This document shows positions 45,731-64,000 of a stretch of DNA of 64,000 nucleotides, piece after piece (positions within the stretch are counted from its first letter, which is position 1; every line of letters starts with the position of its first letter). Made by a program: the position numbers and the translations under genes. The notes below the pieces were generated by a model. It searched no databases. It saw only the letters and a program-made list of their open reading frames with translations, and was not told the origin of the DNA. Location: contig JASUTE010000001.1 in assembly GCA_030445745.1 (NCBI GenBank), positions 133,664 through 197,663 of the forward strand, given 5' to 3'. This stretch comes from Candidatus Cloacimonadota bacterium (GTDB lineage: Bacteria > Cloacimonadota > Cloacimonadia > Cloacimonadales > TCS61).

Positions 45731-48700
45731 ATGAGAAAGTGTTATTTGGTTTTATTGCTGCTATTACTAGTGGGAATTTGTGAATCTCAAACAACAGTAA
45801 TAGATAGTTTGAAGCAGGAATTACTATCCACCGAGATAAATAAAGCTGAACGAGTAGAAATCATTTTGCAGCTGGTTCGACAATATTGGGGGAATGATCC
45901 GGACAAGAGTTTGGAATACGTGCAACAAGCAATGGAAATAGCACGTCAGAACAATTTACCAAAAAAAATACCAAAAGTATACAATTATTTGGGAATTACT
46001 TACGAATTTAAGCAAGAATTCGAAAAAGCCAAGGATTACTACAACACTGCACTTCTTTTTGCTAAAGAAACAAATAATATCGAGCAGGAAGCTTATGCAA
46101 TTTATAATTTAGGATATTTGGCAGATTTGCAAGGTAAGCGGGAGAGAGCGATAGAAAAATATACTGAAGCTATAGAAGCATATAAGTTAGTAGAGGATAA
46201 CGAAAGAATAGCGTATTGCTATGAACATATAGGTCAACTTTATAATGAAATGAGCGACTATGATGCTAGCATAGAAAATTATGAACAAGCCAAACAATTT
46301 TATGGAGAAATTCCAGATAGTTTGAGTGTAGCCGCCTTGGAAAATCAGGTGGGAAGTATTTATGCGGGACTAAGTGATTTTGAAAAAGCTCTGTCTTCTT
46401 TTTTAAAAGCTTTAGATATATTTGAACAGATAGGAAACAAAGAAGGTATAGCTGATACCTACAATTTTTTGGGAAACCTATACAAGGATATGAATAATAC
46501 TTCTCAAGCTTTTGATTACTACCAGCGCTCTTTAAAATTAAACCAAGAATTGGAAAATGAAGATGGTATCTCGATTGCGTATAACAATATCGGAATAATT
46601 TTCGATGAATTGGGAGATCAAGAAAAAGCTTTAGAGTATTATAGAAAATCGTTGGAATTAGATAAAAAAACCAAAGATAGAAATGGTATAGCTACTGCTT
46701 TAAATAATATAGGAATAGTATATCAAACCCTTGGGCAATATGACAAAGCTTTACAAAACCTCTTAGCTTCTTTGGAAATATCTAAAGAGCTGAATGATAA
46801 ATATTCTACTGCCAATACCAGTAATAATATAGCTGAATTATACCTAAAAACAGGTAAACTAAAACAAGCTGACCAGTATCTACAGACATCAAAAGAGATA
46901 ACTTCCGAAATCCAGATTAGCAGTTTGCAAATGGAGATATATCGCATTGAAGCAGACCTGCTAGCCCAGCGCGGAAAATATAAAAAAGCCTTCCAAATAA
47001 AAAATAAATATTATGCTATGAAAGATAGTTTATTCAACGAAAATAGCCAGAAGATAGTTGAATTACAGACTCAATATGCCGTAGAACAAAAGGAAAAAGA
47101 GATAGAGCTATTGGAACGTAAAGAGGAAATTAACAGACTGAAAATAAGTTCACACAAAAGAGAGCGATTCTTCTTTTTAGCAATTATTGCTTTAATACTA
47201 ATGATAGGAGGAGTTTTATATCATCAGTTCAAGGTTAATAAACAGAACAGTGACTTTTTAGACAAGGTTATAAATTCTCTGCCACATCCGTTTGTGGTTA
47301 TTAATGCCGAAAACTATCAAATTGAATTGATGAATAAAAGTGCACAAAGTGAAAATCTGAATATTGTGGAGTATGATGAGAAAAAGGGAAGATATTTTAG
47401 GAAAAAAAACGCACCCTATGATTTGGACGAGATTATAAAAAATAAAAAAGATGAAATGGTATTTTCGGAATTTGAGGTAAACGATACTAGAGGAAGCAGA
47501 TATTACGAAATTCATGCCTACGCCATAAAAGATAACAGTAATAATGTTAAAAAGATTATAGAATATGCCTTTAATATAACTGAAAGGAAAAAGGCTGCAG
47601 AGAAGATAAAGCGCAGTGAAACCAAATTTAGAAGTCTTTTTGAAGGCGCCAGTGATGCTATTGCTATTCTTAAAGACCACAAATTTGTGCAATGTAATAA
47701 ACAGGCGTTAAAATTGTATGGTGTCAGCGAAAATGAGTTGATAGGACGTTCTCCCTTAGATTTCTCGCCCGAATACCAGAGAGATGGCACACCTTCAGCA
47801 GATCTGATAAAAGAAAAAATAGATAGTGTATTGCAAGGCAATAATAGTTTTTTTGTATGGCGGCAAATAAAGAAAAATGGAGAAATATTTGATGCAGAAA
47901 TTTCACTTAGTCCTTTGAAGTTGGATGATGAAATCTATGTGCAGGCAATAATTCGTGATATTACTAAACGTTTACAAACCCAAAGAGCTTTGGAAGAAAG
48001 CGAGGCCAAAAACTCAGCTATTTTACAGGCTATTCCCGATATTATGTTTGTATTCGATTCCAAAGGAGAGTACAAAGAAATCCACACTACCAATGAAGAT
48101 GATCTTATTAGGCCTGCTCAAAAGCTTTTAGGTAATACTATTCGTGATATGATTCCCAAGAAAGAAGCAGAGATCTTCTATTATTATATCGAGAAGGCAT
48201 TTGAAACAGGAGAGATACAAAGATTTGAATATGACCTGAAAATCGGTGAACAAAGAAAGTACTTTGAAGCTAGATTAATTGTGATGGAAGAAGATAGAGT
48301 GCTTTGTATTGTGCGTAATTATTCCAAGCAAAAAGAAGCTGAACTGGCATTGAAAAAAAGCGAAGAAAATTTCCGTATGGTAGTAGAAGATCAGACTGAA
48401 TTAATATGTCGCTTAAATAAAGAAGGTAACATGACTTTTGTGAACCAGTCTTTATGCCGTTATTTGGGAGCAATCCAGGAAGAGTTACTAGGCACTAAAT
48501 TGAATAGATATCTAATGGAAGAAGATTTAAAAATGGTCAAGGAGAATTTAGCTGAACTAACTTTTGAAAAACCTATTGTGGTTCAAGAGCACAGAATGAT
48601 AATTGATGATGAAGTACGCTGGACGGAGTGGACTGACCGTAAATTATTTGATGAAAATAGGGAATTTATTGGTTATCAGGCAGTAGGCCGAGATATTACT

Positions 48701-49504
48701 GAAAGAAAAAAAGCTGAAGAGAAACTGAAACAAACTAATAGGGAATTGAAAGCATTACAGGCAGATTTGCAAAGACGTGTGGATGAAGCTATTAAAGAGA
48801 TAAGAGAAAAAGACCATCTTATCATTAAACAATCTCGCCAAGCAGCGATGGGCGAGATGATAGGCAATATTGCCCACCAATGGCGGCAACCTTTGGCAGC
48901 AGTAGCAGCTATTGTGCAAAGTTTCGAAGATGCTTATGAAGATGGTGAACTAGATGCTGATTACATAGAGGAAAAAACCGATATGATGATGGACTTGTTA
49001 CAACATATGTCTCGTACAATCGATGATTTCCGTAACTTTTTCAAACCAAACAAGGTCAAAGAATCATTTTCTTTGAAAGAAAATATTAAAAAAACCACCA
49101 AACTAATCGCCAGCAGTTTTAAAAATAACAATATTGAACTGCAGTTAGAGTTGGCAGAAGATATAAATATCGAGGGTTATCCTAATGAGTTTTCGCAGGT
49201 AATACTAAATATTTTGAATAATGCCAAGGATGCCTTTGAAGCAAATGAAATAAGCGATCGCAAAGTGAAGATAAGCATTCATAAGAAAAAAAGAAAGAAT
49301 ATTATCTCAATAGAAGATAATGCAGGTGGAATTAAGGATAAAATTCTGGATAAGATCTTTGACCCCTATTTTACTACCAAACATCAAAGTGCGGGAACAG
49401 GTTTGGGCTTGTATATGAGTAAGATGATAGTGGAAAAAAATATGGATGGCCACCTGGAAGTAAAAACTTGGCCAGGTGGCACTCGCTTCGATATTATTCT
49501 TTAA
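45731..49504 (+). CDS. Membrane sensor histidine kinase with TPR and four PAS domains
   Basis: The 1257-aa protein has a signal peptide ('MRKCYLVLLLLLLVGICES'). An extracytoplasmic array of about eight to nine TPR repeats follows (residues 50-430; for example 'AYNNIGIIFDELGDQEKALEYYRKSLEL'), then a coiled coil and one membrane helix near 480-500 ('FFFLAIIALILMIGGVLY'). Four PAS modules span about 505-995 ('ETKFRSLFEGASDAIAIL', 'EENFRMVVEDQTELICRL'). The kinase core has His near 1048 ('NIAHQWRQPLAAVAA'), N-box 'NILNNAKDAF', 'EDNAGGI' and 'GTGLGLYMSK'. No receiver is attached. It is divergent from the purine operon and ends 11 bases into the secretin gene, tail to tail. The ligand is unknown; its partner regulator is not adjacent. 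Confidence 0.9.
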   Translation: MRKCYLVLLLLLLVGICESQTTVIDSLKQELLSTEINKAERVEIILQLVRQYWGNDPDKSLEYVQQAMEIARQNNLPKKIPKVYNYLGITYEFKQEFEKAKDYYNTALLFAKETNNIEQEAYAIYNLGYLADLQGKRERAIEKYTEAIEAYKLVEDNERIAYCYEHIGQLYNEMSDYDASIENYEQAKQFYGEIPDSLSVAALENQVGSIYAGLSDFEKALSSFLKALDIFEQIGNKEGIADTYNFLGNLYKDMNNTSQAFDYYQRSLKLNQELENEDGISIAYNNIGIIFDELGDQEKALEYYRKSLELDKKTKDRNGIATALNNIGIVYQTLGQYDKALQNLLASLEISKELNDKYSTANTSNNIAELYLKTGKLKQADQYLQTSKEITSEIQISSLQMEIYRIEADLLAQRGKYKKAFQIKNKYYAMKDSLFNENSQKIVELQTQYAVEQKEKEIELLERKEEINRLKISSHKRERFFFLAIIALILMIGGVLYHQFKVNKQNSDFLDKVINSLPHPFVVINAENYQIELMNKSAQSENLNIVEYDEKKGRYFRKKNAPYDLDEIIKNKKDEMVFSEFEVNDTRGSRYYEIHAYAIKDNSNNVKKIIEYAFNITERKKAAEKIKRSETKFRSLFEGASDAIAILKDHKFVQCNKQALKLYGVSENELIGRSPLDFSPEYQRDGTPSADLIKEKIDSVLQGNNSFFVWRQIKKNGEIFDAEISLSPLKLDDEIYVQAIIRDITKRLQTQRALEESEAKNSAILQAIPDIMFVFDSKGEYKEIHTTNEDDLIRPAQKLLGNTIRDMIPKKEAEIFYYYIEKAFETGEIQRFEYDLKIGEQRKYFEARLIVMEEDRVLCIVRNYSKQKEAELALKKSEENFRMVVEDQTELICRLNKEGNMTFVNQSLCRYLGAIQEELLGTKLNRYLMEEDLKMVKENLAELTFEKPIVVQEHRMIIDDEVRWTEWTDRKLFDENREFIGYQAVGRDITERKKAEEKLKQTNRELKALQADLQRRVDEAIKEIREKDHLIIKQSRQAAMGEMIGNIAHQWRQPLAAVAAIVQSFEDAYEDGELDADYIEEKTDMMMDLLQHMSRTIDDFRNFFKPNKVKESFSLKENIKKTTKLIASSFKNNNIELQLELAEDINIEGYPNEFSQVILNILNNAKDAFEANEISDRKVKISIHKKKRKNIISIEDNAGGIKDKILDKIFDPYFTTKHQSAGTGLGLYMSKMIVEKNMDGHLEVKTWPGGTRFDIIL

Positions 49505-50558
49505 GTTTCATCCGTTCTATAGCGCTGGGAATTATTTCAACCTTTAATATTATCACCAGCTCTTTTTTACTGGTTTGTGTTTTATCGTAACCGGTAAGAT
49601 AGCGTATACCAAAAAACCACCAAGGTAAGTCTTTTAAAATTGGAATACCTCCGCGTTCCACATTTTCTTCTTCGCTATAAAGACCGGCTATAGCCGTTTC
49701 TTCGCCATCGTACATTACCAAATCGGTACGAGATTGACTTTTATTGATAATAGTGGTAAGCTCACCTGGGTTAGCAGTGCTTCGTTCTATCTGGGTCTGC
49801 ATATGAATGGCTTTTTGACCATTATGTTCTATGATAGTGGGAGTAACATCTAAAATAACACCTGTTGAGAAAAAATTATCGATCACATTTCCTGCCTCAT
49901 CAACTGATTTTATGGAAAAATCTTGACCTACCTGGATATAACCTTTTTTCCCAGATGCGACAATGATATTAGGACTGGCTAATACCTTTCCCAGTTGATT
50001 TGATTCTATTGTTCTTAGCATGGTATCGATATTGATGAAATATCCACCTTCAGTGAATGAATTGGAAGCATCGGCCTGGAAAATATCTCCGGCTACTTTA
50101 GAACCTCCACTAAAAGAAGCACTGGCTTGAACATCACCGTTTAGCAATGTAGACCAATCTATTCCTAATGATTTTAGGAAGGAGTGATCGGCAACAAATG
50201 CTGTGGCGGTTATCTTTATCTGTTCTGAATCTATCGAAACTCCTGCCTCATCAGATTTTTTTTGCGGTAGTTGAATTAAATAGGCACCACTTTGTTCTTC
50301 TACTACTAAATTATTTTGGAGGGCGATTAGTTCTAGTGCTTTTTTCCAATGTAACTGATTTATTGGAACATCGATAGTAGTATTCATATCGGAAAGGTTA
50401 TATATTTTTTTGCCTTCATATTTTTCCGATAAGGTTTCTATGGCAATAAGTGCATCATTCAAGCTTGTATCTTCCGCTAAATTTATTATCTCCATCTTAT
50501 TTTGGGCTGTCAAAAGAGCACAACTGAAAATAAGAAAAACGATTATTATTCTTTTCAT
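49494..50558 (-). CDS. Short secretin-like outer-membrane protein
   Basis: The 354-aa protein has a signal peptide ('MKRIIIVFLIFSCALLTAQ') and an N-terminal domain like the STN/secretin N0 region (about 30-100). The C-terminal secretin domain includes 'LGKVLASPNIIVASGKKGYIQVGQ', 'GVILDVTPTIIEHNG', 'DLVMYDGEETAIAGLYSEE' and 'GIPILKDLPWWFF', the secretin signature. At 354 aa it is much shorter than PilQ or GspD (usually over 600) because the N1-N3 repeats are missing. It is the last gene of the pilus operon and overlaps the PilO/P-like gene by four bases. Confidence 0.87.
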   Translation of the reverse strand: MKRIIIVFLIFSCALLTAQNKMEIINLAEDTSLNDALIAIETLSEKYEGKKIYNLSDMNTTIDVPINQLHWKKALELIALQNNLVVEEQSGAYLIQLPQKKSDEAGVSIDSEQIKITATAFVADHSFLKSLGIDWSTLLNGDVQASASFSGGSKVAGDIFQADASNSFTEGGYFINIDTMLRTIESNQLGKVLASPNIIVASGKKGYIQVGQDFSIKSVDEAGNVIDNFFSTGVILDVTPTIIEHNGQKAIHMQTQIERSTANPGELTTIINKSQSRTDLVMYDGEETAIAGLYSEEENVERGGIPILKDLPWWFFGIRYLTGYDKTQTSKKELVIILKVEIIPSAIERMKLKE

Positions 50559-51418
50559 GATTTATCTCCTTTCAGGCTCATCTTATAAATTTCTTTTTTG
50601 TCATATATTTCCAATTCAAAAATCACTTCTTGGTTTTCGCTGTCGATGTAACTAAGTTTGCCATAGGCAACCGGATCGCCAATATTAAGAATATTGATAA
50701 TCCCGTTAGCTTCTTTTAAAAATGCTTTGTTGTGAGTAAGACCGATTAGTTTGCTCTTTTTCACATTTAGCAGATTGGGATCAGCTGTTGCCTGTTCTTC
50801 AATTTCCATAATTGGCCTGAAATAATTGAAGCGATAAAAATGATAGGGAAGATAACTAAGCTCGATCTTATCGTAAGGACTGCCTGATTGATCGTAATAA
50901 GCATTAAGTTTCATAGAAAATTCCACCGAATCGCTTTTAGCAGAGTTACGGTTAGCAATAGCCAGATCTTCTATAGTGTAAATTGGTTTTTGTTGTTCCA
51001 GATTCAAAATAAATTTTTGTAAATTCATTAAACCAACATTGCCTGTAATCATATATTCGTTGTAGTTGGTTTTTCCGTCTGTATATTTTTTTGATTGGCT
51101 AAAATTGAAACGCAAATTTTGGGAAAAGGCTTTACTAAGCTTCAGAAAATAATCGAAAGTAATGGTAGAGTTATCAGTTTTCAGTAGTACTTTTTTTTCT
51201 CTTAGTTTAGCTTGTTTTAAGTTTTCCAGTTTTTCTAACATCTCTTCTTTTTGTTTTTCAACCTCGGAGCCTGCCGCCAGTTTTTTATTAAGATCTTGAT
51301 GTGTAGCAAGGGCTGTATCTAAATCTGCTTTCAGGTTATTAAGGGAAATGTTTCCCAATATGAAGATGGCCAGTAATAGAAAGACCAGGATTAAAGAATT
51401 TCTGGTTTTATTATTCAT
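50555..51418 (-). CDS. PilO/PilP-like inner-membrane assembly protein
   Basis: The 287-aa protein has a short cytoplasmic start, one membrane helix (about 9-26, 'SLILVFLLLAIFILGNIS'), a coiled coil (28-75) and a ferredoxin-like PilO-type segment ('FDYFLKLSKAFSQNLRF', 'LQKFILNLEQQKPIYTIEDL'). The C-terminus ('IINILNIGDPVAYGKLSYID') has the feel of the small PilP beta domain that docks onto the secretin. A PilO-PilP fusion fits the gene order between PilN-like and secretin. Family assignment rests on topology and context. Confidence 0.6.
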   Translation of the reverse strand: MNNKTRNSLILVFLLLAIFILGNISLNNLKADLDTALATHQDLNKKLAAGSEVEKQKEEMLEKLENLKQAKLREKKVLLKTDNSTITFDYFLKLSKAFSQNLRFNFSQSKKYTDGKTNYNEYMITGNVGLMNLQKFILNLEQQKPIYTIEDLAIANRNSAKSDSVEFSMKLNAYYDQSGSPYDKIELSYLPYHFYRFNYFRPIMEIEEQATADPNLLNVKKSKLIGLTHNKAFLKEANGIINILNIGDPVAYGKLSYIDSENQEVIFELEIYDKKEIYKMSLKGDKS

Positions 51419-53417
51419 TTTGGGCTCCTTCTAATGTTCTCAGTAATTTTTTTGCCTTTGGTAGTACACTGGAAGTTGTATAGTAATTCATAAGGAGTTG
51501 CAATTGTTCAATTGCTTGCTGGTTTTGCCCTTTATTTGCCATTAACTTAGCTTTCATATACATAGCAAATGGCGCCATGTTGTTTTTGGCTTCTATCACC
51601 TGATTGAACAGTTGCAGAGCTTCTTCTGTTTTGCCTTCTTGGTAAATTAGTTCGCCTATTAAATATTTGGAATTCAAGGCTAGTTCATCTTGAGGATATT
51701 TTTCAATTAATTTGCGTGCTAAATTTATAACTTTTTTTCTGTCTCCTTGATAATAAGCGTTAGTGATCTGACGGTAAAGCGTATTGACACTGTTATTTTT
51801 AGTTTCCATAGTTTTAACTGGAGTAACATCTGGTGGCGGAGACTTTTCCTTTTTCTCTATTATCTCAAAGGTACTAATTGCGGGATAATCATAGCTAATA
51901 TCAAAACTCCATATTTCACGTCCTTCCAGGGTTTCACTATCTACACTGGTAATATTGCTGTTGGGAAAGAGTTTGGAAAAATAGATGATATTTTCGCGGT
52001 CATCGGTAATACCGGAAATGATAAAGCCATTTTTTTCGCTTTTTACATTGGTAAGCCAACTTTTGGGGTGAGTAGCAACAGCATAAGCAAACTTATTCAT
52101 TATATAAGTCCATTTATTCTTGTTTTCTAAAATATTCGTTATTTTACTATCGCTTTCTATGATTTGATTAATCTGTTTTTGCACATTTTGAATTATCATT
52201 CTATCTTGCTTTATACTCTGTAATTTTTGTTCCAAATTCTTATTTTTTGCCACCATTTGATTTAATTGTTGATTAAAATTCAAATAGGAATTGGTAAGAT
52301 ATAACACAGTTAAGAAGATAACAGCTAATATCACAAATCCATGCCAACCAATTTTGAATGGTTTTTGAGATTCAATAACCTTCGGTGACAGGAAATTAGA
52401 GGTAATGAAGTGAAGAGTTTTCAGGTGCATTGATTTCATGGCGAGCATAATTGGAATAATATAGGCTGCGATCTCATCTGCTCCTATTTCCGGATCGATG
52501 GTTAGAGGGAAATTTTCGAAAGTAGCTCTCTTTACCTCAATATTTTCATACTTCTGGGAAAAGTAAGCTATATCCTCGTCTTTACTGTAATCTCCCGCTA
52601 TGATTAATTTACTAAATTCGGGAAGATCTTCTTCATCTTCCATAAGCATCAGCTTAGAATAAATTTCCTCTTTGATGTCGAAGCTATTGGCACTGGTCAT
52701 TATGGGAAATGATTTTTTATATGAATTACCTTCCATAAAGATACCCTTTTTGTATTCGTGACCCAAATACAAGAGCAGAGTATTTTCTGAGGCGGCAAGT
52801 TCTTTTGAATTTTTCAGATAATCAGTAAGCAAGATATCATTACAATCGATAAGGGAATAGAAATATTTTTTATGGGCATTTTTCTTATTGAAATCTTGCA
52901 GAAAACTGAATAGCTTATTCTCGCCGCGATGTACTACTATGGTAGTTTGATCATTTACATTAGGTATGAAATTTATCTGAATGTTTTTATCTCGTTTTTC
53001 ATACGGCTTCAATATTTCCAGTTCTACCAATTTGCTGCGGGTGATCTTTTTTTGTGGCAGATTAAGTGTGTGAAAATTGAGCTTATCGTTATTGGCATTC
53101 AAAGCTAATTTACCGCTATTCAAGGGGAAACGGCGTAATAGATACTCGAGAGACATAAATTTACTATGCAGATCTTCTCCTTGGTCCAGATCAAAATCAT
53201 CGCTCTGTTCATTCAAATTTATGGGGCCATTGTTTTCTACATCCCCTTGTTCGAAATTTTTCTTTTTCAATACAGCTCCCGCATATAAGGGAGAATCCAT
53301 AAATTCTTTTTGTAAAGATACAAGCGAAGCTGAATTTTTTTGCATTTGTAACTGAGCAATTTTTATATTCTTCCCATCCTCGAATATGCCAAAATGAAAT
53401 TTGTTCTTTTTACTCAT
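51411..53417 (-). CDS. PilM/PilN-like assembly platform protein with C-terminal TPRs
   Basis: The 668-aa protein starts with an actin-like PilM/GspL-type region ('FHFGIFEDGKNIKIAQLQ', residues 6-340). One membrane helix follows near 354-375 ('FVILAVIFLTVLYL'), then a coiled coil and a PilN-type periplasmic part ('WTYIMNKFAYAVATHPKSWLTNV'). It ends with tetratricopeptide repeats (about 550-660, 'KYPQDELALNSKYLIGELIYQEGK'). Classical systems split PilM and PilN into two proteins. Here they appear fused, as in GspL, with an added periplasmic TPR module. Overlap with the PilO/P-like gene is eight bases. Confidence 0.65.
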   Translation of the reverse strand: MSKKNKFHFGIFEDGKNIKIAQLQMQKNSASLVSLQKEFMDSPLYAGAVLKKKNFEQGDVENNGPINLNEQSDDFDLDQGEDLHSKFMSLEYLLRRFPLNSGKLALNANNDKLNFHTLNLPQKKITRSKLVELEILKPYEKRDKNIQINFIPNVNDQTTIVVHRGENKLFSFLQDFNKKNAHKKYFYSLIDCNDILLTDYLKNSKELAASENTLLLYLGHEYKKGIFMEGNSYKKSFPIMTSANSFDIKEEIYSKLMLMEDEEDLPEFSKLIIAGDYSKDEDIAYFSQKYENIEVKRATFENFPLTIDPEIGADEIAAYIIPIMLAMKSMHLKTLHFITSNFLSPKVIESQKPFKIGWHGFVILAVIFLTVLYLTNSYLNFNQQLNQMVAKNKNLEQKLQSIKQDRMIIQNVQKQINQIIESDSKITNILENKNKWTYIMNKFAYAVATHPKSWLTNVKSEKNGFIISGITDDRENIIYFSKLFPNSNITSVDSETLEGREIWSFDISYDYPAISTFEIIEKKEKSPPPDVTPVKTMETKNNSVNTLYRQITNAYYQGDRKKVINLARKLIEKYPQDELALNSKYLIGELIYQEGKTEEALQLFNQVIEAKNNMAPFAMYMKAKLMANKGQNQQAIEQLQLLMNYYTTSSVLPKAKKLLRTLEGAQNE

Positions 53418-54655: not shown

Positions 54656-55519
54656 TTACTCCTTATCTGGATTTGTGTAAGTATAGCCCAAGAACATAGC
54701 AATTTTGCCCATACTTTTTTTCCATTTCAAATACATCAGATTCATCAGGTTAATCATAAATAATTTCAGGAGACTTTCCTTGTGATATTTGAAGAATTCT
54801 ATGATGTTTTTTCGGTTGTAGTGTCTTACCACGCACTTTTTTTTGGCCTTTAAAGTGGTAAAATTTCTATTGGAAGGAATAAAGGTTTCTTCGCCCCAAC
54901 TTTGTCCTTCTTCCAGGTTTTCTATCAAGGTTTCACTGATGTAAACAGAAGCTGTGCCAGTTTCTAAAAGGATTATCGTTCCAGGTTCATCGGTAAGAGG
55001 GATTTTTTCTCCGGGTTGATAAGTTTTTCTAACAGCTAATTCGTGGAAATCCGCTTTTTCTTCCGAACTGAAATTTCTGAGCATAATATTATCGAAAAAA
55101 TTCTTCCCAGGTGCTGTTTCTTCAGAAGATTTGGGCATACTTCCTGTAAGTTCATTATGGTGTTCCATACCTCGCTTAACCACATTTAGTAATTCTTCCC
55201 CAATGATAGGTTTGGTGATATAATGAAAAGCTCCACCGCGGATAGCATTGATAGCTCCATCGATACTAGAATAGCCGGTGGTAATTATTACTACAGCCAG
55301 CGGATATTTTTCCTTGATCTTTTTCATTAGCTGCATGCCATCCATTCGGGGCATGTAGACATCCAATATGAACAAATCGAACTGTTCATATTGCATTTTA
55401 TCTAAAGCATCTTGGCCGTCTACTGCAGTTGTAACCTGATAATCTTTATCAGTTAAAAGATCTTTAATAATCTCCCGAATATTTTGCTCGTCATCAACGA
55501 CTAGTATTTTACGTTTCAT
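54656..55519 (-). CDS. Response regulator with C-terminal cNMP-binding-like domain
   Basis: The 287-aa protein has an N-terminal receiver domain with phospho-acceptor Asp53 ('LFILDVYMPRMDG'), an acidic pocket 'VVDDEQ' and Lys in 'YITKPI'. The C-terminal half (about 155-260) resembles a cyclic nucleotide-binding fold ('TYQPGEKIPLTDEPGTIILLETGTASVYI', 'GQSWGEETFI'). No DNA-binding domain is seen, so the output is probably protein-protein, for example on the adjacent PilT-like motor. It overlaps the kinase-like gene by 11 bases. Whether it binds a nucleotide is not shown. Confidence 0.82.
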   Translation of the reverse strand: MKRKILVVDDEQNIREIIKDLLTDKDYQVTTAVDGQDALDKMQYEQFDLFILDVYMPRMDGMQLMKKIKEKYPLAVVIITTGYSSIDGAINAIRGGAFHYITKPIIGEELLNVVKRGMEHHNELTGSMPKSSEETAPGKNFFDNIMLRNFSSEEKADFHELAVRKTYQPGEKIPLTDEPGTIILLETGTASVYISETLIENLEEGQSWGEETFIPSNRNFTTLKAKKKCVVRHYNRKNIIEFFKYHKESLLKLFMINLMNLMYLKWKKSMGKIAMFLGYTYTNPDKE

Positions 55520-56420
55520 TTTTAAGTTCCCTCTCTATTTTTTTTACTAATTCGTTTGTTTTAAGCACCTGCAGTTTTTGCAGAAGCTTAGTTATATCGT
55601 TTATTGCCGATGATATCTCGTTGCTGCTTTTAGCTAGTTTTTCATCTTCATATTTGGCTGCTGCTTCTTTTACTCGGGTTACCGAGAGTGAGATTACACA
55701 AAGTGGAGTGTTTATATCGTGATCAAGATGTGAAATTTTAGCAGCGACTTTACTGAGATTTTCGAATTTTTCATTCTCTTCTTCCAGGTTTCTTAATCCA
55801 GCATTCAAAGTATCCAAATCGGCTTGTAATTGGATATTTTCATCTTCGAATTTCGCTGATTGAGTGTTCAGTTTTTTTAGCAGATCACTGATGAAATTAG
55901 CTATTAGTGCCATACCTGTGAATAAACCTGCATAAGAGATTAGAAAAATGGTGGTGGAGGGCGTATCCATTGCATTGGTTTCTGTTATAGGGGTTAAGAG
56001 AGAGTATTTGTATAACAGTAATAATGCAGTTAAGGCCGCAGTTGATATGAGACCTGTGATAACACCCCCCATATTTTCCACCGTTAAACTAGCTGTAATA
56101 ACTCCAATTAGGTATATCCATATAAAAGAACTATGAAAACCACCTGTGATATGTACTACGGCAGTAGCATAAGCAACATCTAATAAAATCTGTAAAATTG
56201 CAAAGAACTGTCTTTGTTTTATAATCTGTATTTGGAACAATATATTCATTATTGTTAGTCCTAAAAAGGTGAATATGAAAATGTAAATAGGATACGTTTC
56301 TTGTAGTTGGTTAACTTGCAAAATTCCAATGGAAAATATAATAACTAAGAAGAACCAGCGGATATTTGCCCACCATTTGTACATCATTTCTTCGTAATTT
56401 TTAACTTTTGTTTGTGCCAT
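55509..56420 (-). CDS. Membrane histidine kinase-like protein lacking a catalytic domain
   Basis: The protein has about 303 aa from the ATG at 56420 (AAGGAG upstream; the track start 56441 adds seven residues). Five to six hydrophobic segments fill residues 20-190, then comes a coiled coil (200-230). A dimerisation/phosphotransfer helix pair follows with the H-box 'HLDHDINTPLCVISLSVTRV'. The chain ends soon after, at 'ELVKKIERELKNET', without N, G1 or G2 boxes. It cannot bind ATP by itself. It may be phosphorylated by another kinase or act as a phosphatase or anchor for the overlapping receiver-cNMP protein. Confidence 0.8.
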   Translation of the reverse strand: MAQTKVKNYEEMMYKWWANIRWFFLVIIFSIGILQVNQLQETYPIYIFIFTFLGLTIMNILFQIQIIKQRQFFAILQILLDVAYATAVVHITGGFHSSFIWIYLIGVITASLTVENMGGVITGLISTAALTALLLLYKYSLLTPITETNAMDTPSTTIFLISYAGLFTGMALIANFISDLLKKLNTQSAKFEDENIQLQADLDTLNAGLRNLEEENEKFENLSKVAAKISHLDHDINTPLCVISLSVTRVKEAAAKYEDEKLAKSSNEISSAINDITKLLQKLQVLKTNELVKKIERELKNET

Positions 56421-56431
56421 AATATTGCTCC

Positions 56432-57325
56432 TTAATTCCAATTAGTAATATAGTAACTGGAAAATACAGGCATGTTATAGATATCTTCTGAGAGAACATT
56501 GGAATCAAAATTAACTTCACAGTTACCTGTAAGTATAGCATCGCCATCTATTTCTATCGTACTTTCAACAAAAAGTGCACCATCAAAGTTGGCGTTCCCA
56601 GAAATACGGACATTGCCCATTATCCAGACAATTCCCTGGAAATACATGTTCCCAGACACATTTAAATTACCATTAACAATAAGAATTCCACTTCCTTCCC
56701 AATTACTTGAGATAATAAAACTTGAATTTTCTTCCAAATCGATCCAGGTGATATCTGCAACTGGAGTGATATTGTTCGCCGGATCCACATAATAGTTATT
56801 GGCGTAATCTTTGGCGTGCTGTTTATCAATTCCAAATATTTCTTCAAAATCGGGAGGAGTATTTTCGCTAATATCACCATTTACTTCTGCGCTTCCTTGC
56901 ACTGTTACTGAACCTGCTGCTGTGATAGCTGAACTAAGGTTTATCTGATTTGAAGGTTGCTGGTAAAGTGTGGTTGACTTAACCTCGGTTGCAGTTTCTC
57001 CAGCTACATTAGCGTGTACATATGCCTTTAATAAAATTTCATTAGAAGTTATTTTACGATAAATGAGGCTGTCTATACTACCATTTCCGATATCGAAATT
57101 GGTATAGGAAAGTTTCAGCAAACTATCTGTAATGGAAACTTCGGTGTTGCGTAGTTTCTTAATAGCAAAGTTAAGTGCATAATTTGCCAGTGATTCTGCT
57201 TCTTTTTCTACAACATTTTGCGAAATAGTTTTGGGAACTTTTTGCATCTTATCTGCCAGAGAAATGCTAATAGCACTTAAAATTGTGCCCAAAATAAGTA
57301 TTGAAATTATTATTACTTTTCCCAT
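56432..57325 (-). CDS. PilX-like pilus-associated protein with beta-solenoid region
   Basis: The 297-aa protein has an N-terminal hydrophobic helix ('MGKVIIISILILGTILSAISISLA') and an alpha-helical stretch ('ESLANYALNFAIKKLR') of the pilin/PilX kind, with no charged leader. The C-terminal half is a run of short beta repeats ('GILIVNGNLNVSGNMYFQGIVWIMGNVRISGNANFDGALFVES'), similar to bactofilin/DUF-type solenoids seen in putative tip or minor pilins. It is encoded between the other pseudopilin-like genes and the sensor, and is a plausible tip adhesin or initiator. The family is not firmly identified. Confidence 0.6.
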   Translation of the reverse strand: MGKVIIISILILGTILSAISISLADKMQKVPKTISQNVVEKEAESLANYALNFAIKKLRNTEVSITDSLLKLSYTNFDIGNGSIDSLIYRKITSNEILLKAYVHANVAGETATEVKSTTLYQQPSNQINLSSAITAAGSVTVQGSAEVNGDISENTPPDFEEIFGIDKQHAKDYANNYYVDPANNITPVADITWIDLEENSSFIISSNWEGSGILIVNGNLNVSGNMYFQGIVWIMGNVRISGNANFDGALFVESTIEIDGDAILTGNCEVNFDSNVLSEDIYNMPVFSSYYITNWN

Positions 57326-57334
57326 ATCAATCTC

Positions 57335-57901
57335 CTATAAAAACATGTTGTAAAAATATTGCCAAAGCACTATCTGGCTTTTCAGGTTAACTTCGAAATT
57401 TTCCTTGTTTATTCCCTTTTGGAAGAAATCCAATTTAATTCTGGCATATCTAATTGAATCTATATAGGTAGTAACAGGGCTACTTAGTTCAGTGTCATCT
57501 GCTTTATAATAATTTACTTCTAAGCTATCGGACAACCAAAAGGGTCCCATAATTAAGCTACCATTTTGATATACTTTTAAAGGATAACCACTGGCAGTAC
57601 TATCTTCCTGAACCAATTTTATCGTAGCAACAGCTGTTTCTTGGGCTAATCTCCCCTTAAATTCAAATTCATTGCTTTTAGCGGTAGTTATCATAGTAGA
57701 ATCTGGATCTACACCAGAGCCTACCCGAGCTAAAATTTCATTGTTCAAAATCGATGTAACCTCTTCAGAGATATCGTTTAGGGAAACTTGCATTTCCAGA
57801 TTCATAGCTGTAGTCTGAATGGTAAACAGTCCGTTTAAAATGCTAACGATCAGCATTCCACCAACAACTGTTGCCCATATAGTTTCCAGAATCGCTGTCA
57901 T
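57335..57901 (-). CDS. Pseudopilin-like membrane protein
   Basis: The 188-aa protein has an N-terminal hydrophobic helix (about 8-30, 'TIWATVVGGMLIVSILNGLF') followed by an amphipathic alpha segment ('MNLEMQVSLNDISEEVTSILNNEIL') and a beta-rich C-terminus. The topology and neighbours suit a minor pseudopilin or PilV/W-like protein. A canonical prepilin peptidase site (Gly before Phe/Met-Thr-Leu-Ile-Glu) is not obvious. The role is inferred from context. Confidence 0.55.
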   Translation of the reverse strand: MTAILETIWATVVGGMLIVSILNGLFTIQTTAMNLEMQVSLNDISEEVTSILNNEILARVGSGVDPDSTMITTAKSNEFEFKGRLAQETAVATIKLVQEDSTASGYPLKVYQNGSLIMGPFWLSDSLEVNYYKADDTELSSPVTTYIDSIRYARIKLDFFQKGINKENFEVNLKSQIVLWQYFYNMFL

Positions 57902-57909
57902 GATATCTC

Positions 57910-58344
57910 CTAATTTATCTGAATCTTTGCTAACATTTTGGTAATAGGGGCACTTTCTGTTCCAATAAAGATAGTGTCCTGATTACCCTTAACAGTATAT
58001 ATTTTAAAATCCAATCTTTGAAAATTACTACTAGAGCCTACATCTATTCCCAGAGAATCGCAGTAGGAAGAGGAGATGTTATAATGATAGACTTGGCCTT
58101 CTACTGAAATACTATTTTCCAAGGAAGAGTATTCAGTATAGATTTGGCTGAAGTCCTTAGTTTCGCTAATGATGCTGGCCATAATGCTTTGGTAAATTTT
58201 CTCTACTATTTGCAGGCCTTGCAGATAATAATTGGTGTTATAGATTGTTTCCGCTTGCTCTATTATACCATTATAATAAGTTAGGAACAAGGTAGAAAAC
58301 AAAATAACTGCAAATAATACAAAGAGTAATTGACCTGTACCCAT
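57910..58344 (-). CDS. Pseudopilin-like membrane protein
   Basis: The 144-aa protein starts almost directly with a hydrophobic helix ('GTGQLLFVLFAVILFSTLFLTYY') followed by an alpha segment and a beta-rich domain. This is the shape of a small pilin-like subunit. No typical type IV leader with a Glu5 is seen. Start and PilB stop overlap by one base (TAATG), so the gene is coupled to PilB. Confidence 0.55.
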   Translation of the reverse strand: MGTGQLLFVLFAVILFSTLFLTYYNGIIEQAETIYNTNYYLQGLQIVEKIYQSIMASIISETKDFSQIYTEYSSLENSISVEGQVYHYNISSSYCDSLGIDVGSSSNFQRLDFKIYTVKGNQDTIFIGTESAPITKMLAKIQIN

Positions 58345-60122
58345 TAGTTGTTCTCCGAGGTTGCATAGGCTACTTCTTCAATGGTAGTGTAGCCTTGCAA
58401 AATTCTATCCATTCCAGATTGACGCATCGAAAGCATGCCATGCTTTTCTGCCAGTTTTCGAATATTTACTACATCTATATCATCTCCGGCCTTCATTATT
58501 GCTTCGCTTATATCCGGATAGAAATAGAGTGCTTCTGCGATATTGATTCTTCCTTTATAACCAGCTGTACATTTAGGACAGCCCACTGCTTCGTATACTC
58601 TCCCTGCTTCCAGGTCTTCTTGCTTCAAGCCAAACTCCATAGCAGCATTCCATTTCTCTTTGGAAAGTGGACGCTTACAATTATCACATAGTTTTCTCAC
58701 CAACCTTTGTGCTATTATAATGTTGATCGAATAAGCTAGCAGGAATGGCTCTACACCCATTTTATACAAGCGAGAGATGGCACTGGGTGCATCATTGGTA
58801 TGCAAGGTAGAAAGCGTGAGATGACCTGTATTGGCCAGCTTTACAGCTAAATCTGCTGTTTCCTTGTCGCGAATCTCGCCAACCATGACCACATCGGGGT
58901 CATGACGCAAAATAGAGCGGATAGCTTGATCGAAACGCATTTTGTGGCTTATCTTTAGTTGACGTGCTCCTTTTATAACGTATTCCACTGGGTCTTCACA
59001 GGTTAAAACGTTCTTGGTAGGATCGATAACATAGTGCAAGGCTGCCATCAGGGTAGTACTTTTACCACTACCGGTGGGACCAGTAACTATCACAATACCT
59101 TTAGAAGAGCTTATTGCTTTATGAAATTCTTTTTCAGCAAGTTTCTGAAAACCCAATTTTCTAAAATCTGTAATTACCTTTCTATCGTCAATGACTCGTA
59201 TAACCACACTTTCGAAGCGGCGATGAAATTCTGAAGAAACAACGGGAATAATCGAAATACGAAAACGAATAAGGTGGTCATCGATAAACCTTTGTGCAAA
59301 TCCATCCTGCGCTTCATCGCGCTCGAATCTATCGATTCCCTGGAATCGATCTTTTACTACAGCAGCGAAAGCTTCTGGCATCGTGTTTTCTTGCCGGTGC
59401 CACAGCCGCAACTTGCCGTCTATTCTAAAGTAGATCTCGAAGGCTGTTTCGGAAGCTGCAATTATGTGAAGGTCGCTAACATCGCTTCTTACAGCTTCCA
59501 CTAGAGCACCCTCAAATAGATTTACTAGCTGGCTTTTATTGATCTTTTCATCTAACTCTTTCTTGTCTACTTCATATTCTTCTTTTTCCACATCAACTAC
59601 TTCATCACCTACTTCTTCCAAAAGTTCCAAAAATTCATTTTTTTGAGGGGATATCAAGTCCATTATATCCATCAAATTGTTGAGTGGGCAATAAACCACT
59701 TCGTATTTCTTAAAATCTGTCACTTCGGGTATCTGCTGGGTCAGTTTATTGGTTGGATCAGCGGATAGTACCTTAAGACGATCTCCTGTTTTTGAGATAA
59801 TTTTATAGGGAAAGATCTTATGGAAAAACAGCTTTTTACGGAAATTCTCTGGGAATTGCTGTAGGATATTTTTGGTTTCTTCGATTTGCTTATCATCAAT
59901 TTTTTCCAAGGCAATGTATTCTTTTCGGAAAGCATAAAGTTCTGCTAGAGTGCTATATATGCTATCGTGTGGTATATGAAACTCGGATACCAGGATTTTG
60001 GCTAAATTGGAGGGAGTTTTTTCATTACTCTCTTCCAATCTTTTTATCGCTTTTTGTAAAATTTCTTCGGTTATAATGTTTTCTTTTAATAAGCGTTTGC
60101 CGAATTTTGATTTTTCTATCAT
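58344..60122 (-). CDS. PilB/GspE-type assembly ATPase
   Basis: The 592-aa hexameric ATPase powers pilus or pseudopilus assembly. The N-terminal MshEN-like region (about 1-150) can bind c-di-GMP in some homologues. The core has Walker A 'VTGPTGSGKSTTLMAAL' (about 334-350), an Asp box 'LTCEDPVEYVI', Walker B 'DPDVVMVGEIRDKET' and 'LSTLHTND'. The zinc tetracysteine site is 'LCDNCKRP...VGCPKCTAGYKGR'. All catalytic motifs are intact, unlike the PilT-like protein. It lies 16 bases after the PilC gene. Confidence 0.93.
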   Translation of the reverse strand: MIEKSKFGKRLLKENIITEEILQKAIKRLEESNEKTPSNLAKILVSEFHIPHDSIYSTLAELYAFRKEYIALEKIDDKQIEETKNILQQFPENFRKKLFFHKIFPYKIISKTGDRLKVLSADPTNKLTQQIPEVTDFKKYEVVYCPLNNLMDIMDLISPQKNEFLELLEEVGDEVVDVEKEEYEVDKKELDEKINKSQLVNLFEGALVEAVRSDVSDLHIIAASETAFEIYFRIDGKLRLWHRQENTMPEAFAAVVKDRFQGIDRFERDEAQDGFAQRFIDDHLIRFRISIIPVVSSEFHRRFESVVIRVIDDRKVITDFRKLGFQKLAEKEFHKAISSSKGIVIVTGPTGSGKSTTLMAALHYVIDPTKNVLTCEDPVEYVIKGARQLKISHKMRFDQAIRSILRHDPDVVMVGEIRDKETADLAVKLANTGHLTLSTLHTNDAPSAISRLYKMGVEPFLLAYSINIIIAQRLVRKLCDNCKRPLSKEKWNAAMEFGLKQEDLEAGRVYEAVGCPKCTAGYKGRINIAEALYFYPDISEAIMKAGDDIDVVNIRKLAEKHGMLSMRQSGMDRILQGYTTIEEVAYATSENN

Positions 60123-60138: not shown

Positions 60139-61479
60139 CTAAAATCCGGTTGGTGGTGAAACTGTTGAAATTTCTGCAGAAACTATGGTGAGCAGTGTGA
60201 TAACTATTGCTATGAAGAAGCCGATAACAGTTTGAATAAGTTCAATAAGTGATTCCATTTTGTAGGTGGTTTCAGCTTCAAAATAGGAAGCTATCTGCTG
60301 AGCTGGTTTTAAAATATTACCTGTTTCCGACCCGCTTTTCAACCTGGAGATCACCGAACGTGGAAAAACTCCGGAGGCCTGCATAGCAGGGACGAATGCT
60401 TCACCTTTTTCCAACATTAAAGGTACGGTTACTGTTTTTATCATTTTTTCTATATATTTATTTCTACAAGCCTCAGCTGAAATTAAGATTGTTTCAATAT
60501 TATCGGAAGCACCAGCATAAACAGTGGCAAATACTCGGAAAAAAATCTCGATACTGGTTTTGTGAATAAGGTGGCCGATTACTGGTAACTTTATAATGAA
60601 CCTATCACGCCATACTTGTCCCGAGGGGGTAGACCACCAGCGCCAGATTATTAGTACAGGAATGAAGAATGCTCCCAAAATATACAGATAATTATTACCC
60701 AACCAATCACTCAGTTCCAAGGTTTTTTGGGTCATAGGTGGTAGGTCGATACCCAGTTTAACAAATAGTTCAGTGGTAGCGGGGAAAATTTCCATTACAT
60801 AATACATTACAGCGCCAATTGTTGCTAGCACAGCAAACATCGGTGATACTAACGCTTTCTTAATATTTTTTCTGATCTCGCTGTCGCGCTCTATAAAAGT
60901 ATTAGTAGCTTCAAATATTTTAGCCATATTACCACTCTGAGTAGCTAAACCCATCATAAATGCTGGGAATTTGCCAAACACATCGGTATATTTCTTGAAA
61001 ACTTCCTGGCCTTCAGCTCCTTGTTTCAATTCTTTTTCTATCTGATACAGAGTTTCCTTAAGAACACTATTATTTTGCTCTTCCGCTAAAAGACTTAATA
61101 CCTGGCCAAAATTCATTTTATCGTTTAGCATGTTGGTGCTAAGCTTGATGAACATCTGGATATCACTCTTGGATGGCTTCATTTGGATATCGAATAGCAT
61201 TGGCGAAATAGTAAAGTCGTCATAACCCATGTTTTTTAATCCCCTGGCTACCTCTTCTTTGGAATAAGCTTTTTGCTTACCCTTTATCTTTTTCTTATTA
61301 GGAAGCTTAATAGTATAGAGGAAAGTGCGCTTTTGTTCTATATCGGTGATGTTCAAATTGTATTTTTGGGCTAATTTATCAATTTTCTCTTTGGCATTTT
61401 TCAAGTTACGCGCATTCACCGTGCCTTGCGCTGACCTGCCTTGGGGTGAAATCCCTCTGAACCTAAATTCCTTGATCAT
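60139..61479 (-). CDS. PilC/GspF-type inner-membrane platform protein
   Basis: The 446-aa polytopic protein has two T2SSF repeats (about 105-235 and 310-430; 'LSTNMLNDKMNFGQVLSLLAEEQ', 'FFRVFATVYAGASDNIETILISAE'). Membrane helices lie near 215, 270 and at the C-terminus ('LIELIQTVIGFFIAIVITLLTIVSAEIS'). An N-terminal 100-residue cytoplasmic extension starts 'MIKEFRFRGISPQGRSAQGTV'. It is the first gene of the operon, with GAGAGG before the ATG and the sigma-54 site about 25 bases upstream. Confidence 0.92.
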   Translation of the reverse strand: MIKEFRFRGISPQGRSAQGTVNARNLKNAKEKIDKLAQKYNLNITDIEQKRTFLYTIKLPNKKKIKGKQKAYSKEEVARGLKNMGYDDFTISPMLFDIQMKPSKSDIQMFIKLSTNMLNDKMNFGQVLSLLAEEQNNSVLKETLYQIEKELKQGAEGQEVFKKYTDVFGKFPAFMMGLATQSGNMAKIFEATNTFIERDSEIRKNIKKALVSPMFAVLATIGAVMYYVMEIFPATTELFVKLGIDLPPMTQKTLELSDWLGNNYLYILGAFFIPVLIIWRWWSTPSGQVWRDRFIIKLPVIGHLIHKTSIEIFFRVFATVYAGASDNIETILISAEACRNKYIEKMIKTVTVPLMLEKGEAFVPAMQASGVFPRSVISRLKSGSETGNILKPAQQIASYFEAETTYKMESLIELIQTVIGFFIAIVITLLTIVSAEISTVSPPTGF

Positions 61480-61635: not shown

Positions 61636-63018
61636 TTAGCGAAAATCTGTTGGATCTAAATTGTATTTTTTTAATTTAGGATACAAATTTTGGCGTAAAA
61701 TTCCAGTAGTTTCTGCAGCTTTGGTAATATTGCCCTTACATTTTTCTAAAATGGTTTTAAAATAATCTTTTTCAAATTTTTGTTTAGCTTGTTTAAAATT
61801 CAAAGAAGCTAATTTATCTATATTGGAATTTTGAACTTCTGCTACCGGATAAAGATTATGTGGTAAATCATGAGGTAGAATAGCACTATGTTCAGCTAAT
61901 ATCACGGCTCTTTCTATTACATTGCGCAATTCCCTTACATTTCCTTTCCATTCTGCCGAGCGTAAAATAGACATAGCTGGTGACGAAATTTCCAGATCTG
62001 GTTTGTTGTATTTCAGTTTAAATTCATCTAAAAAACATTTTGCGAAGACTTCGATATCTTCTACTCTTTTACGCAGAGGGGGAATGGAGAGATTAATTAT
62101 ATTGAGGCGATAATAAAGATCTTCGCGGAATTTCCCATTTTCTACCAGAGTTTTAATATCTTTGTTGGTTGCCACAATCAGTCTTACGTCGATTTTTATA
62201 TCCTTTTCTCCTCCTACCTTACGAATTACCTTATTTTCTATTGCCCGTAATAATTTAACCTGAAATGAGGCTGAAGTCTCGGTAATTTCATCTAAAAACA
62301 AACTGCCATGCTGGGCTTCTTGGAAATAGCCTTGCGTGGAACGCACAGCATCTGTAAAAGCTCCTTTTTCATGGCCAAAGAGATGACTTTCTAACAAAGT
62401 TTCAGGGATACTTCCACAGTTTACAGTAACAAATTTATTCTCTTTACGTGGGCTATTTTCATGAATTAGTCGGGCTATTAGGCTTTTACCTACTCCAGTT
62501 TCGCCTGTTATGAGCATGGTGGTATCTAAAGGTGCTATTTTCTCAACCATTTTAAAAATATTCTGCATCACTTTGCTAGTTCCTATTATCGGCTTAGAAG
62601 AAACCTGTTTATTCAAAATAGAATTGAGTCTCTTATTTTCCTGAACCAGCCATTGCTTATTCAAAATTTTATCGATAAGCACAGTTAGTAATTCCAAATC
62701 GCTTATTGGTTTCAGGATAAATTCTTCTGCTCCCAGCTTCATCGCTTCTACTGCATTTTGAATGGTAGCCTGACCACTAATGACTATAATTGAGATATAA
62801 GGCCATCTTTTGCGAATAGTTTGCATCAATTCCAAACCATTGCGTCCTGGCATTACTAAATCGGTTATGGCAATATTAAAACTCTCTGTTTCTAAAGTCT
62901 GTAAAGCTGATTCTGCCGATTGTACAGCGGTTACATCGTATCTATCGGAAAGAAAATCCTGCAAAAGTTCCAAAGTGTCTTTTTCATCATCTACGATTAA
63001 AATTTTATTGTTTTTCAT
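61636..63018 (-). CDS. NtrC-type sigma-54-dependent response regulator
   Basis: The 460-aa activator has a receiver with Asp53 ('IAITDLVMPGRNG'). The AAA+ domain carries Walker A 'TGETGVGKSLIARLI', the sigma-54 contact loop 'GAFTDA' (a variant of GAFTGA), Walker B 'GSLFLDEITE', the 'GKFREDLYYRLNIINL' sensor region and 'WKGNVRELRNVIERAV'. It ends with a Fis-type helix-turn-helix ('AAETTGILRQNLYPKLKKY'). Phosphorylation by the kinase encoded two bases upstream would trigger it to open sigma-54 promoters, most likely that of the adjacent pilus operon. Confidence 0.95.
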   Translation of the reverse strand: MKNNKILIVDDEKDTLELLQDFLSDRYDVTAVQSAESALQTLETESFNIAITDLVMPGRNGLELMQTIRKRWPYISIIVISGQATIQNAVEAMKLGAEEFILKPISDLELLTVLIDKILNKQWLVQENKRLNSILNKQVSSKPIIGTSKVMQNIFKMVEKIAPLDTTMLITGETGVGKSLIARLIHENSPRKENKFVTVNCGSIPETLLESHLFGHEKGAFTDAVRSTQGYFQEAQHGSLFLDEITETSASFQVKLLRAIENKVIRKVGGEKDIKIDVRLIVATNKDIKTLVENGKFREDLYYRLNIINLSIPPLRKRVEDIEVFAKCFLDEFKLKYNKPDLEISSPAMSILRSAEWKGNVRELRNVIERAVILAEHSAILPHDLPHNLYPVAEVQNSNIDKLASLNFKQAKQKFEKDYFKTILEKCKGNITKAAETTGILRQNLYPKLKKYNLDPTDFR

Positions 63019-63019
63019 G

Positions 63020-63733
63020 TTATCCTCGAATTGGGAACATTATCTGAGCTGTTACCCTCTCTTCTTTGGCAATTAATTTAATTTCTGAATTATATTTTTT
63101 TAAAATATATTTCACTAAAGGTAAACCCAACCCATATTCGGAATTGTTCTTAGTAGTAAATTCTGGTAAGAATATTTTTTCGGTAGGAGTGGGAATTTTA
63201 CCTCTGTTATTTATTTCTAATTCAACTCTTGAATTTGATAGCTTAGTGGTGATAAATATTTTATTTTCATCGATAGCTTGCAATGCTTCCACAGCATTGT
63301 TTAATAAATTATCTAATATCAGATGCAAATCGCCTGCTGCAATATGTAATTTTGGCAGATTTTTGGTTAAATCGGTTTCCACCTTGATATTATGCTTAAA
63401 AAATAAATTAAAACTCATTAGCTTCAAATGATTAACTATCTCTTCATTCAGATTCAAGAAAACAGGCATCTCATTCTTAAATTTTTCTATATCCAAAGCT
63501 AAATTTTTAAATTCTTTATCAATTTCTAAACCAGCTTGATATATTTTTTCTACAGCTTTAAGCTCAGGATTTCTATTCCTAAGAATTTGAGCATAGCCCA
63601 GAATTGTATTCAACGGTGAATTCAAATTGTGAATTATGCCTTCCAATTTACAGCCTAATATAGCTAAGCGAGCTTTTCTTAAAATTTCTAATTCATGCTT
63701 CTTCATTTTCATTAAATATCTGGTTAAGAACAC
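63020..63733 (-). CDS. Cytosolic sensor histidine kinase
   Basis: The 237-aa protein consists of little more than the kinase core. The phospho-acceptor lies in 'GIIHNLNSPLNTILGYAQIL', N-box in 'LILDNLLNNAVEALQA' and G2-like 'YGLGLPLVKYIL'; the G1 box is weak ('INNRGKIP'). No membrane or PAS domain is present. The GTG at 63733 has GAGG upstream; an ATG at 63712 is the alternative. It overlaps the upstream receiver gene and is followed two bases later by the NtrC-type regulator, so it is the cognate kinase. Confidence 0.88.
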   Translation of the reverse strand: MFLTRYLMKMKKHELEILRKARLAILGCKLEGIIHNLNSPLNTILGYAQILRNRNPELKAVEKIYQAGLEIDKEFKNLALDIEKFKNEMPVFLNLNEEIVNHLKLMSFNLFFKHNIKVETDLTKNLPKLHIAAGDLHLILDNLLNNAVEALQAIDENKIFITTKLSNSRVELEINNRGKIPTPTEKIFLPEFTTKNNSEYGLGLPLVKYILKKYNSEIKLIAKEERVTAQIMFPIRG

Positions 63734-64000
63734 GCATAATATCCTCTATTTTAAAAGGTTTAGCTAAAACTCCCTTGAATCCAAATTCTTTATAGTTGGC
63801 CATTACCGGATCCATAGAATAACCACTGGAGACTATAGCTGTTACTTTTGGATCTATCTCTTTTAATTTATTAATAGCTTCTTTGCCACCCATACCACCT
63901 GGTACAGTAAGATCCATAATTACAACTTCAAAAGGTTCTTCATCCAGTGCTTTTTTATATTTTTTAATTGCTTCTTCGCCATCTGTTGCAGTTTCTACCT
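63693..64000 (-). CDS. Receiver domain, C-terminal end of a gene running off the window
   Basis: The frame is open from the window edge to the TGA at 63693. About 102 residues of a receiver are visible ('EEPFEVVIMDLTVPGGMGG', with the phospho-acceptor Asp in 'MDL'; 'TAIVSSGYS'; 'GVLAKPFKIEDI'). The 'DLTVPGGMGGKEA' style is common in the C-terminal receiver of hybrid histidine kinases, so this may be the tail of a large hybrid sensor. The N-terminus is outside the window. It overlaps the small kinase gene. Confidence 0.85.
   Translation of the reverse strand, partial: VETATDGEEAIKKYKKALDEEPFEVVIMDLTVPGGMGGKEAINKLKEIDPKVTAIVSSGYSMDPVMANYKEFGFKGVLAKPFKIEDIMRVLNQIFNENEEA

Follow-up and report, generated by a model that had tools for sequence, protein, structure and literature searches.

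The locus studied here raises the question of what a phosphorylation module can do within a type IV pilus operon when both of its proteins appear cut short. Two overlapping genes of a Candidatus Cloacimonadota bacterium encode, respectively, a membrane protein that carries the DHp segment of a sensor kinase and a response regulator, and the pair lies immediately before the gene for the retraction motor PilT. To our knowledge, the on/off switching of PilT retraction is poorly understood, and a dedicated phospho-module by pilT that is conserved across the phylum offers an input to the motor that can be tested. The results below suggest that the target of phosphate signaling is the pilus machine and not the expression of its genes.

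The window, by which we mean the whole stretch of 64,000 nucleotides that was analyzed, comes from a 290 kb contig; the genome measures 2.04 Mb and is estimated to be 99.3% complete. PilB, PilT, PilC, the secretin and alignment proteins are encoded together here, as expected of a type IV pilus locus. Read along the minus strand, the locus begins with a hybrid kinase, a short kinase, an NtrC-type activator, pilC and pilB, continues with two pilin-like genes, a bactofilin-like gene, the DHp gene, the regulator gene and pilT, and ends with a PilM/N-like and TPR gene, a PilO-like gene and the secretin gene:

63693..64000 (-), receiver part at the 3' end of the hybrid kinase (L001:2357-4285), which extends past the edge of the window and is a candidate phosphodonor
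63020..63733 (-), short soluble histidine kinase, equipped with both an H-box and an ATPase domain; the alternative candidate donor
61636..63018 (-), NtrC-type sigma-54 activator
60139..61479 (-), PilC/GspF platform protein
58344..60122 (-), PilB-type extension ATPase
57910..58344 (-), first pilin-like gene, so named for its position and its hydrophobic N-terminus
57335..57901 (-), second pilin-like gene, assigned on the same two grounds
56432..57325 (-), protein anchored in the membrane and bearing bactofilin-like beta repeats, directly upstream of the DHp gene
55509..56420 (-), DHp protein, 303 aa, with a RegB/PilS-like six-helix membrane domain, a coiled coil and a HisKA/DHp hairpin, without an ATPase (CA) domain
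54656..55519 (-), response regulator, 287 aa, with a receiver, a CRP-fold domain and a C-terminal helix
53438..54652 (-), PilT-family retraction ATPase (TIGR01420, 2.4e-89); likely output partner
51411..53417 (-), PilM/N-like protein with TPR repeats
50555..51418 (-), PilO-like protein (weak T2SSM_b match)
49494..50558 (-), secretin

The first-pass annotation of this DNA had placed the pair between pseudopilin-like genes and pilT, which holds for the neighborhood as a whole, except that the gene directly upstream is bactofilin-like and not a plain pseudopilin. Relatives (L033-L072) have between one and three copies of this bactofilin-like gene in tandem, which vary in length (295-1196 aa). On the opposite strand, a 1257 aa TPR-PAS-PAS-PAS-HisKA-HATPase kinase (45731-49504, +), which could be a further donor for the pilus regulator, overlaps the secretin gene tail-to-tail by 11 bp. 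Beyond it lies a xanthine-dehydrogenase-like reading frame of 1068 aa (42236-45442, -) in which, read by eye, the molybdopterin- and FAD-binding parts are apparently fused.

The DHp gene starts with ATG preceded by aaggag, its stop codon follows the DHp hairpin, and it overlaps the regulator gene by 11 bp. In the protein from the window, Pfam recognizes 6TM_PilS (1.7e-6) and HisKA (5e-4) and no HATPase domain, and the AlphaFold model (mean pLDDT 85) comprises transmembrane helices, a long helix and the DHp hairpin (residues 232-256 and 260-288), with the chain ending at residue 303. Among 30 homologs scanned, 6TM_PilS matches 26, the four others being soluble short forms, HisKA matches 23 and HATPase none. 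The Pfam Hpt profile (PF01627) matches neither the DHp protein nor the homologs scanned, and a Foldseek search of the DHp membrane protein against the PDB gave no useful match (best E 0.23). Both open reading frames of the pair are where the first-pass annotation had put them, and its description of a membrane protein with an intact H-box and no ATP-binding domain is borne out. Two motifs stand out in this protein:

55701..55724 (-), H-box DHDINTPL, residues 233-240, with the phosphoacceptor His234 at 55719-55721
56124..56147 (-), transmembrane-loop motif TGGxxSxF, residues 92-99, nearly invariant and similar to the RegB quinone motif

The H-box, which reads SHLDHDINTPL in the window, is the best conserved stretch of the protein: Asp233 and His234 are each found in 70 of 73 homologs, and Asn237, Thr or Asn at position 238, and Leu240 in all 73. 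The three substitutions of His234, all to Arg, belong to one clade (G083, G087 and G089) that keeps Asn237, Thr238 and Leu240 and in which the receiver of the regulator is intact. Within the transmembrane domain, HLTGGxxSxFVW is nearly invariant among the homologs; its GGxxSxF resembles, but does not exactly match, the quinone-binding heptapeptide of RegB, GGXXNPF (PMC8191878).

A protein search of 125 Ca. Cloacimonadota genomes, in which the E-value limits differed between the three queries, found the DHp protein in 72 genomes, the regulator in 80 and a PilT of the window type in 92. Only 8-68 aa follow the DHp segment in the 65 homologs with complete reading frames, too little to accommodate an ATPase domain. 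A kinase shortened by truncation or frameshift was considered and is ruled out, since neither the 65 complete relatives nor the 30 scanned contain an ATPase domain and no relative encodes an entire kinase at the locus. The absence of this domain from the relatives, together with their short tails, indicates that selection maintains the short form in this class, so that the earlier label of an "incomplete" phosphorelay is misleading. In nine genomes of family f2 the protein is reduced to a soluble form of 147-184 aa that consists of a coiled coil and the DHp segment, which points to the hairpin, and not the membrane part, as the selected core. The DHp protein illustrates the extent to which a sensor kinase can be pared down with its phosphoacceptor hairpin under strong selection.

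The place of the pair is conserved too. Among the first 40 neighborhoods surveyed, nearly all that are uninterrupted by a contig end show the gene order pilB, pilin-like genes, DHp protein, regulator, pilT, PilM/N, PilO and secretin. Families f1, f2 and f13 are all represented, and f13 belongs to another taxonomic order than the genome of the window. The regulator starts between -29 and +31 bp from the DHp stop codon in all relatives that have both genes. Retention of the pair at the same place throughout the phylum is far beyond chance. Most lineages that have the operon retain the pair; it is missing from some others, and also from second pilT loci that stand alone.

The regulator is recognized by Pfam through Response_reg (2e-29) and a sub-threshold match to cNMP_binding (3e-4). 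Both profiles match all 27 regulator homologs scanned (best cNMP_binding 8e-9), and, given these and the DHp homolog scans, the weak Pfam matches of the window pair are real. In the AlphaFold model (mean pLDDT 83) a receiver is followed by a CRP-like beta-barrel and a C-terminal helix, and neither this model nor Pfam reveals a helix-turn-helix or other DNA-binding domain. The receiver has its full phosphorylation pocket (D9, D10, D53, T81 and K103), as it does in every genome with the DHp protein in which the sequence is complete. Only receivers were found among the best 50 Foldseek matches listed; we assign the CRP fold because of the Pfam match and of matches to the PKG/PKA cNBD profiles. 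One feature of this domain bears on its ligand:

54845..54898 (-), phosphate-binding cassette of the CRP-fold domain, residues 208-225, with Glu210 kept

The phosphate-binding Arg of the cassette (aligned column 219) is absent from all 80 regulator homologs, while the Glu is kept in 79. A cyclic-nucleotide switch of the canonical kind is therefore rejected; canonical binding of cAMP or cGMP by this domain appears unlikely, whereas an unusual ligand is conceivable. Of the first-pass description of a receiver-cNMP protein, the gene overlap and the missing DNA-binding output stand, whereas the cNMP label gives way to a CRP fold without the canonical Arg.

We propose, with about even confidence, that the pair constitutes a phosphorylation switch built into the Cloacimonadota type IV pilus, acting by protein contact and most likely on PilT. 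In this mechanism the DHp protein would be a RegB/PilS-type sensor minus its ATPase half that has kept the DHp helices and the phospho-His and is presumably incapable of autophosphorylation on its own. Phosphate would pass from a separate (hybrid) kinase to His234 and on to Asp53 of the overlapping regulator, and/or be removed through phosphatase activity, while the six transmembrane helices would sense an input that may be the pilin stock, as in PilS, or the quinone state, as in RegB. Through its CRP-fold domain and C-terminal helix, the regulator would then contact the pilus machinery and hand the signal on, most likely to PilT, giving an output that is post-translational and exerted on the machine, not on its genes. 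A wider reading, in which CA-less DHp proteins integral to the membrane form a class found across the phylum, read the pilin stock or the quinone state and gate retraction through contact between the REC-CRP-fold regulator and PilT, is offered tentatively, as possible but doubtful. If true, this would be a phosphorelay ending at a retraction motor.

PilT is indicated as the partner by the linkage of its gene to that of the regulator, which lies directly upstream on the same strand in 76 loci, with a gap of at most 50 bp in 35 of them and of 60-320 bp in many f1 and f13 genomes. The linkage extends to one genome (G106) in which regulator and pilT stand together, apart from other pilus genes, beside neighbors that by eye are recO-like and aminotransferase-like. 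Action directly on the motor, as suggested in the first-pass annotation, is likewise read from this gene linkage, with PilT the most likely output partner of the regulator. At one locus (L036, in G119) about 1.25 kb without a recognized gene separates regulator and pilT, and about 1 kb does so in G065. Four genomes (G097, G101, G066 and G082; loci L073-L076) carry a second PilT outside the pilus operon that is 53-57% identical to that of the window; it follows an HD-domain-like protein, the DHp-regulator pair is absent there, and three of these loci also carry, before the second PilT, a protein of about 275 aa whose function was not recognized.

Natural variants of the module, with the DHp segment alone, with His replaced by Arg, or with the partner absent and the receiver decayed, hint at the role of each part. 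Three lineages carry the regulator without the DHp protein, two of them within f2 (seven genomes) and the third being f11. In all seven f2 genomes the acidic pocket is broken, the residues DDDTK being replaced by ETSAK, DSDTK, EAGTK, DGDSK, DEDSK, DSDGK and DGDSK, although the CRP-fold domain and the position before pilT are retained; in the f11 genomes the receiver pocket is intact despite the missing DHp protein. On the PilT tree these cases amount to three losses of the DHp protein and two breakages of the pocket, both in loss lineages, events that are too few for statistics. Decay of the pocket in two of the three lineages suggests that the regulator needs the DHp protein in order to be phosphorylated, and the survival of the CRP-fold half beside pilT suggests that this half has a job that outlasts phosphorylation.

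Since the DHp protein has no ATPase domain, phosphate would have to come from elsewhere, or the protein would only remove it. A separate source, as proposed in the first-pass annotation, is plausible: the hybrid kinase upstream of the pilus cluster (642 aa, REC-PAS-HisKA-HATPase-REC) is one candidate, and a CHASE4-PAS-HisKA-HATPase-REC kinase follows the secretin in 15 of the 22 f2 neighborhoods that contain the secretin. No Hpt domain was detected in the genome by a search that was positive in 8 of 14 control genomes, and so the DHp-only protein could take the Hpt role, as ChpT does. Against such a role, most f1 and f13 operons have no kinase adjacent to them, and in one genome (G047) a hybrid kinase persists where the DHp protein is missing.

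The same chemistry could be arranged differently. The DHp protein might be mainly a membrane phosphatase or docking receptor, with a cytoplasmic kinase phosphorylating the regulator directly and His234 secondary. The His-to-Arg clade argues for such a role, because its receiver is intact, Asn237, Thr238 and Leu240 are kept and phosphotransfer through the His is thus not universal. The residue four after the His, always Thr or Asn (73 of 73), points the same way; in HisKA proteins this position serves phosphatase chemistry. There is also a precedent in CheA3 of Rhodobacter, a phosphoacceptor protein without a kinase domain that is also the phosphatase of its regulator (PMC3591291). We nonetheless regard this arrangement as rather unlikely, since a pure phosphatase or dock has no obvious need of the His that 70 of 73 homologs keep, the minimal soluble forms included. 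It is improbable that the DHp protein is half of a split kinase whose ATPase domain sits on a second protein, for instance the short kinase at 63020-63733, and phosphorylates the DHp in trans: the short kinase belongs to the same cluster, and the split CheA3/CheA4 pair sets an example (PMC3591291), but it has an H-box of its own and lies near the operons of few relatives (L061 and L072), and no ATPase-only gene recurs in the operon among relatives.

Gating of the motor by cAMP or cGMP bound to the CRP-fold domain, with phosphorylation as a second input, had been suggested by the first-pass annotation in the form of a cyclic-nucleotide input. The cNMP_binding and PKG/PKA profile matches speak for it, as does at least one class III cyclase match in the genome, yet the Arg missing from every regulator homolog speaks against it even with the Glu kept, and another protein (C33), canonical and the genome's one above-threshold cNBD, is available as the receptor, leaving this idea quite improbable. 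That the pair is a functionless remnant of a normal two-component system is very improbable: the weak Pfam scores of the window copies and the degraded receiver or His of a few lineages would fit decay, but the survey largely refutes it by finding the same short form with nearly invariant catalytic residues in f1, f2 and f13. The phosphorylation switch acting on the pilus machinery remains our preferred reading.

Known systems resemble parts of this switch. ChpT is a pseudo-kinase relay between CckA and CtrA (PMC9981736), and the Cloacimonadota protein would be like ChpT and Spo0B in offering DHp helices and a phospho-His as a candidate intermediary between the receiver of a hybrid kinase and a terminal receiver (PMC9981736). 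In contrast to these proteins, which have a degenerate CA-like domain, it has no CA-like domain at all, most of its members carry a six-helix transmembrane sensor domain, and its target would be a pilus-operon regulator. With RegB/PrrB and PilS, whose six-helix domain contacts PilA (PMC6058289), it shares the 6TM_PilS domain and a loop motif like GGXXNPF, and the NCBIfam ActS/PrrB/RegB profile matches 17 of 30 homologs over the transmembrane and DHp parts (best 7.7e-12); unlike them it has no ATPase domain, and its partner regulator has no DNA-binding output. CheA3 likewise bears its phosphoacceptor on a protein without a kinase domain, but on a P1 (Hpt-like) domain instead of a DHp, with flagellar output and a known partner ATPase protein. 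Among the cyanobacterial regulators that act on pilus motors, PixG (PATAN) is a phospho-regulator that contacts PilB/PilC (PMC12288463), an output on the pilus machinery that we infer for the Cloacimonadota regulator too, although the latter has a CRP fold in place of PATAN, is linked to pilT and not pilB, and has no chemotaxis-type CheA. The DHp protein is therefore neither a canonical kinase, for want of a CA domain, nor a strict member of the ChpT/Spo0B group, for want of a CA-like one, and is best described as a membrane DHp protein without a CA domain that, within a pilus operon, is paired with a REC-CRP-fold regulator.

Our searches of the open-licence literature found no description of such a DHp/REC-CRP-fold pilus pair, only incidental mentions of Cloacimonadota together with type IV pili, and nothing relevant on DHp proteins without an ATPase domain; for receiver and cyclic-nucleotide domains with PilT, they found only the PilZ proteins of Myxococcus, apparently a different system. 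Beyond the phylum, a genome scan with one short pattern around the H-box, which leaves room for the layout elsewhere, returned seven non-Cloacimonadota matches, all to DHp segments of other kinds and none with a comparable pilus layout, and a search of plasmids gave no match. Some of the records outside the phylum hold stand-alone reading frames of 94-107 aa with little beyond a DHp segment (L182:5968-6249, L184:255-575 and probably L183:5944-6240; IHHDLNNPLSVISGNAELL), in records labeled Rhodothermales, uncultured and Bacteroidetes. The one in L182 adjoins a PAS-like protein, with no pilus genes noticed nearby, and these reading frames possibly represent another class of DHp-only proteins.
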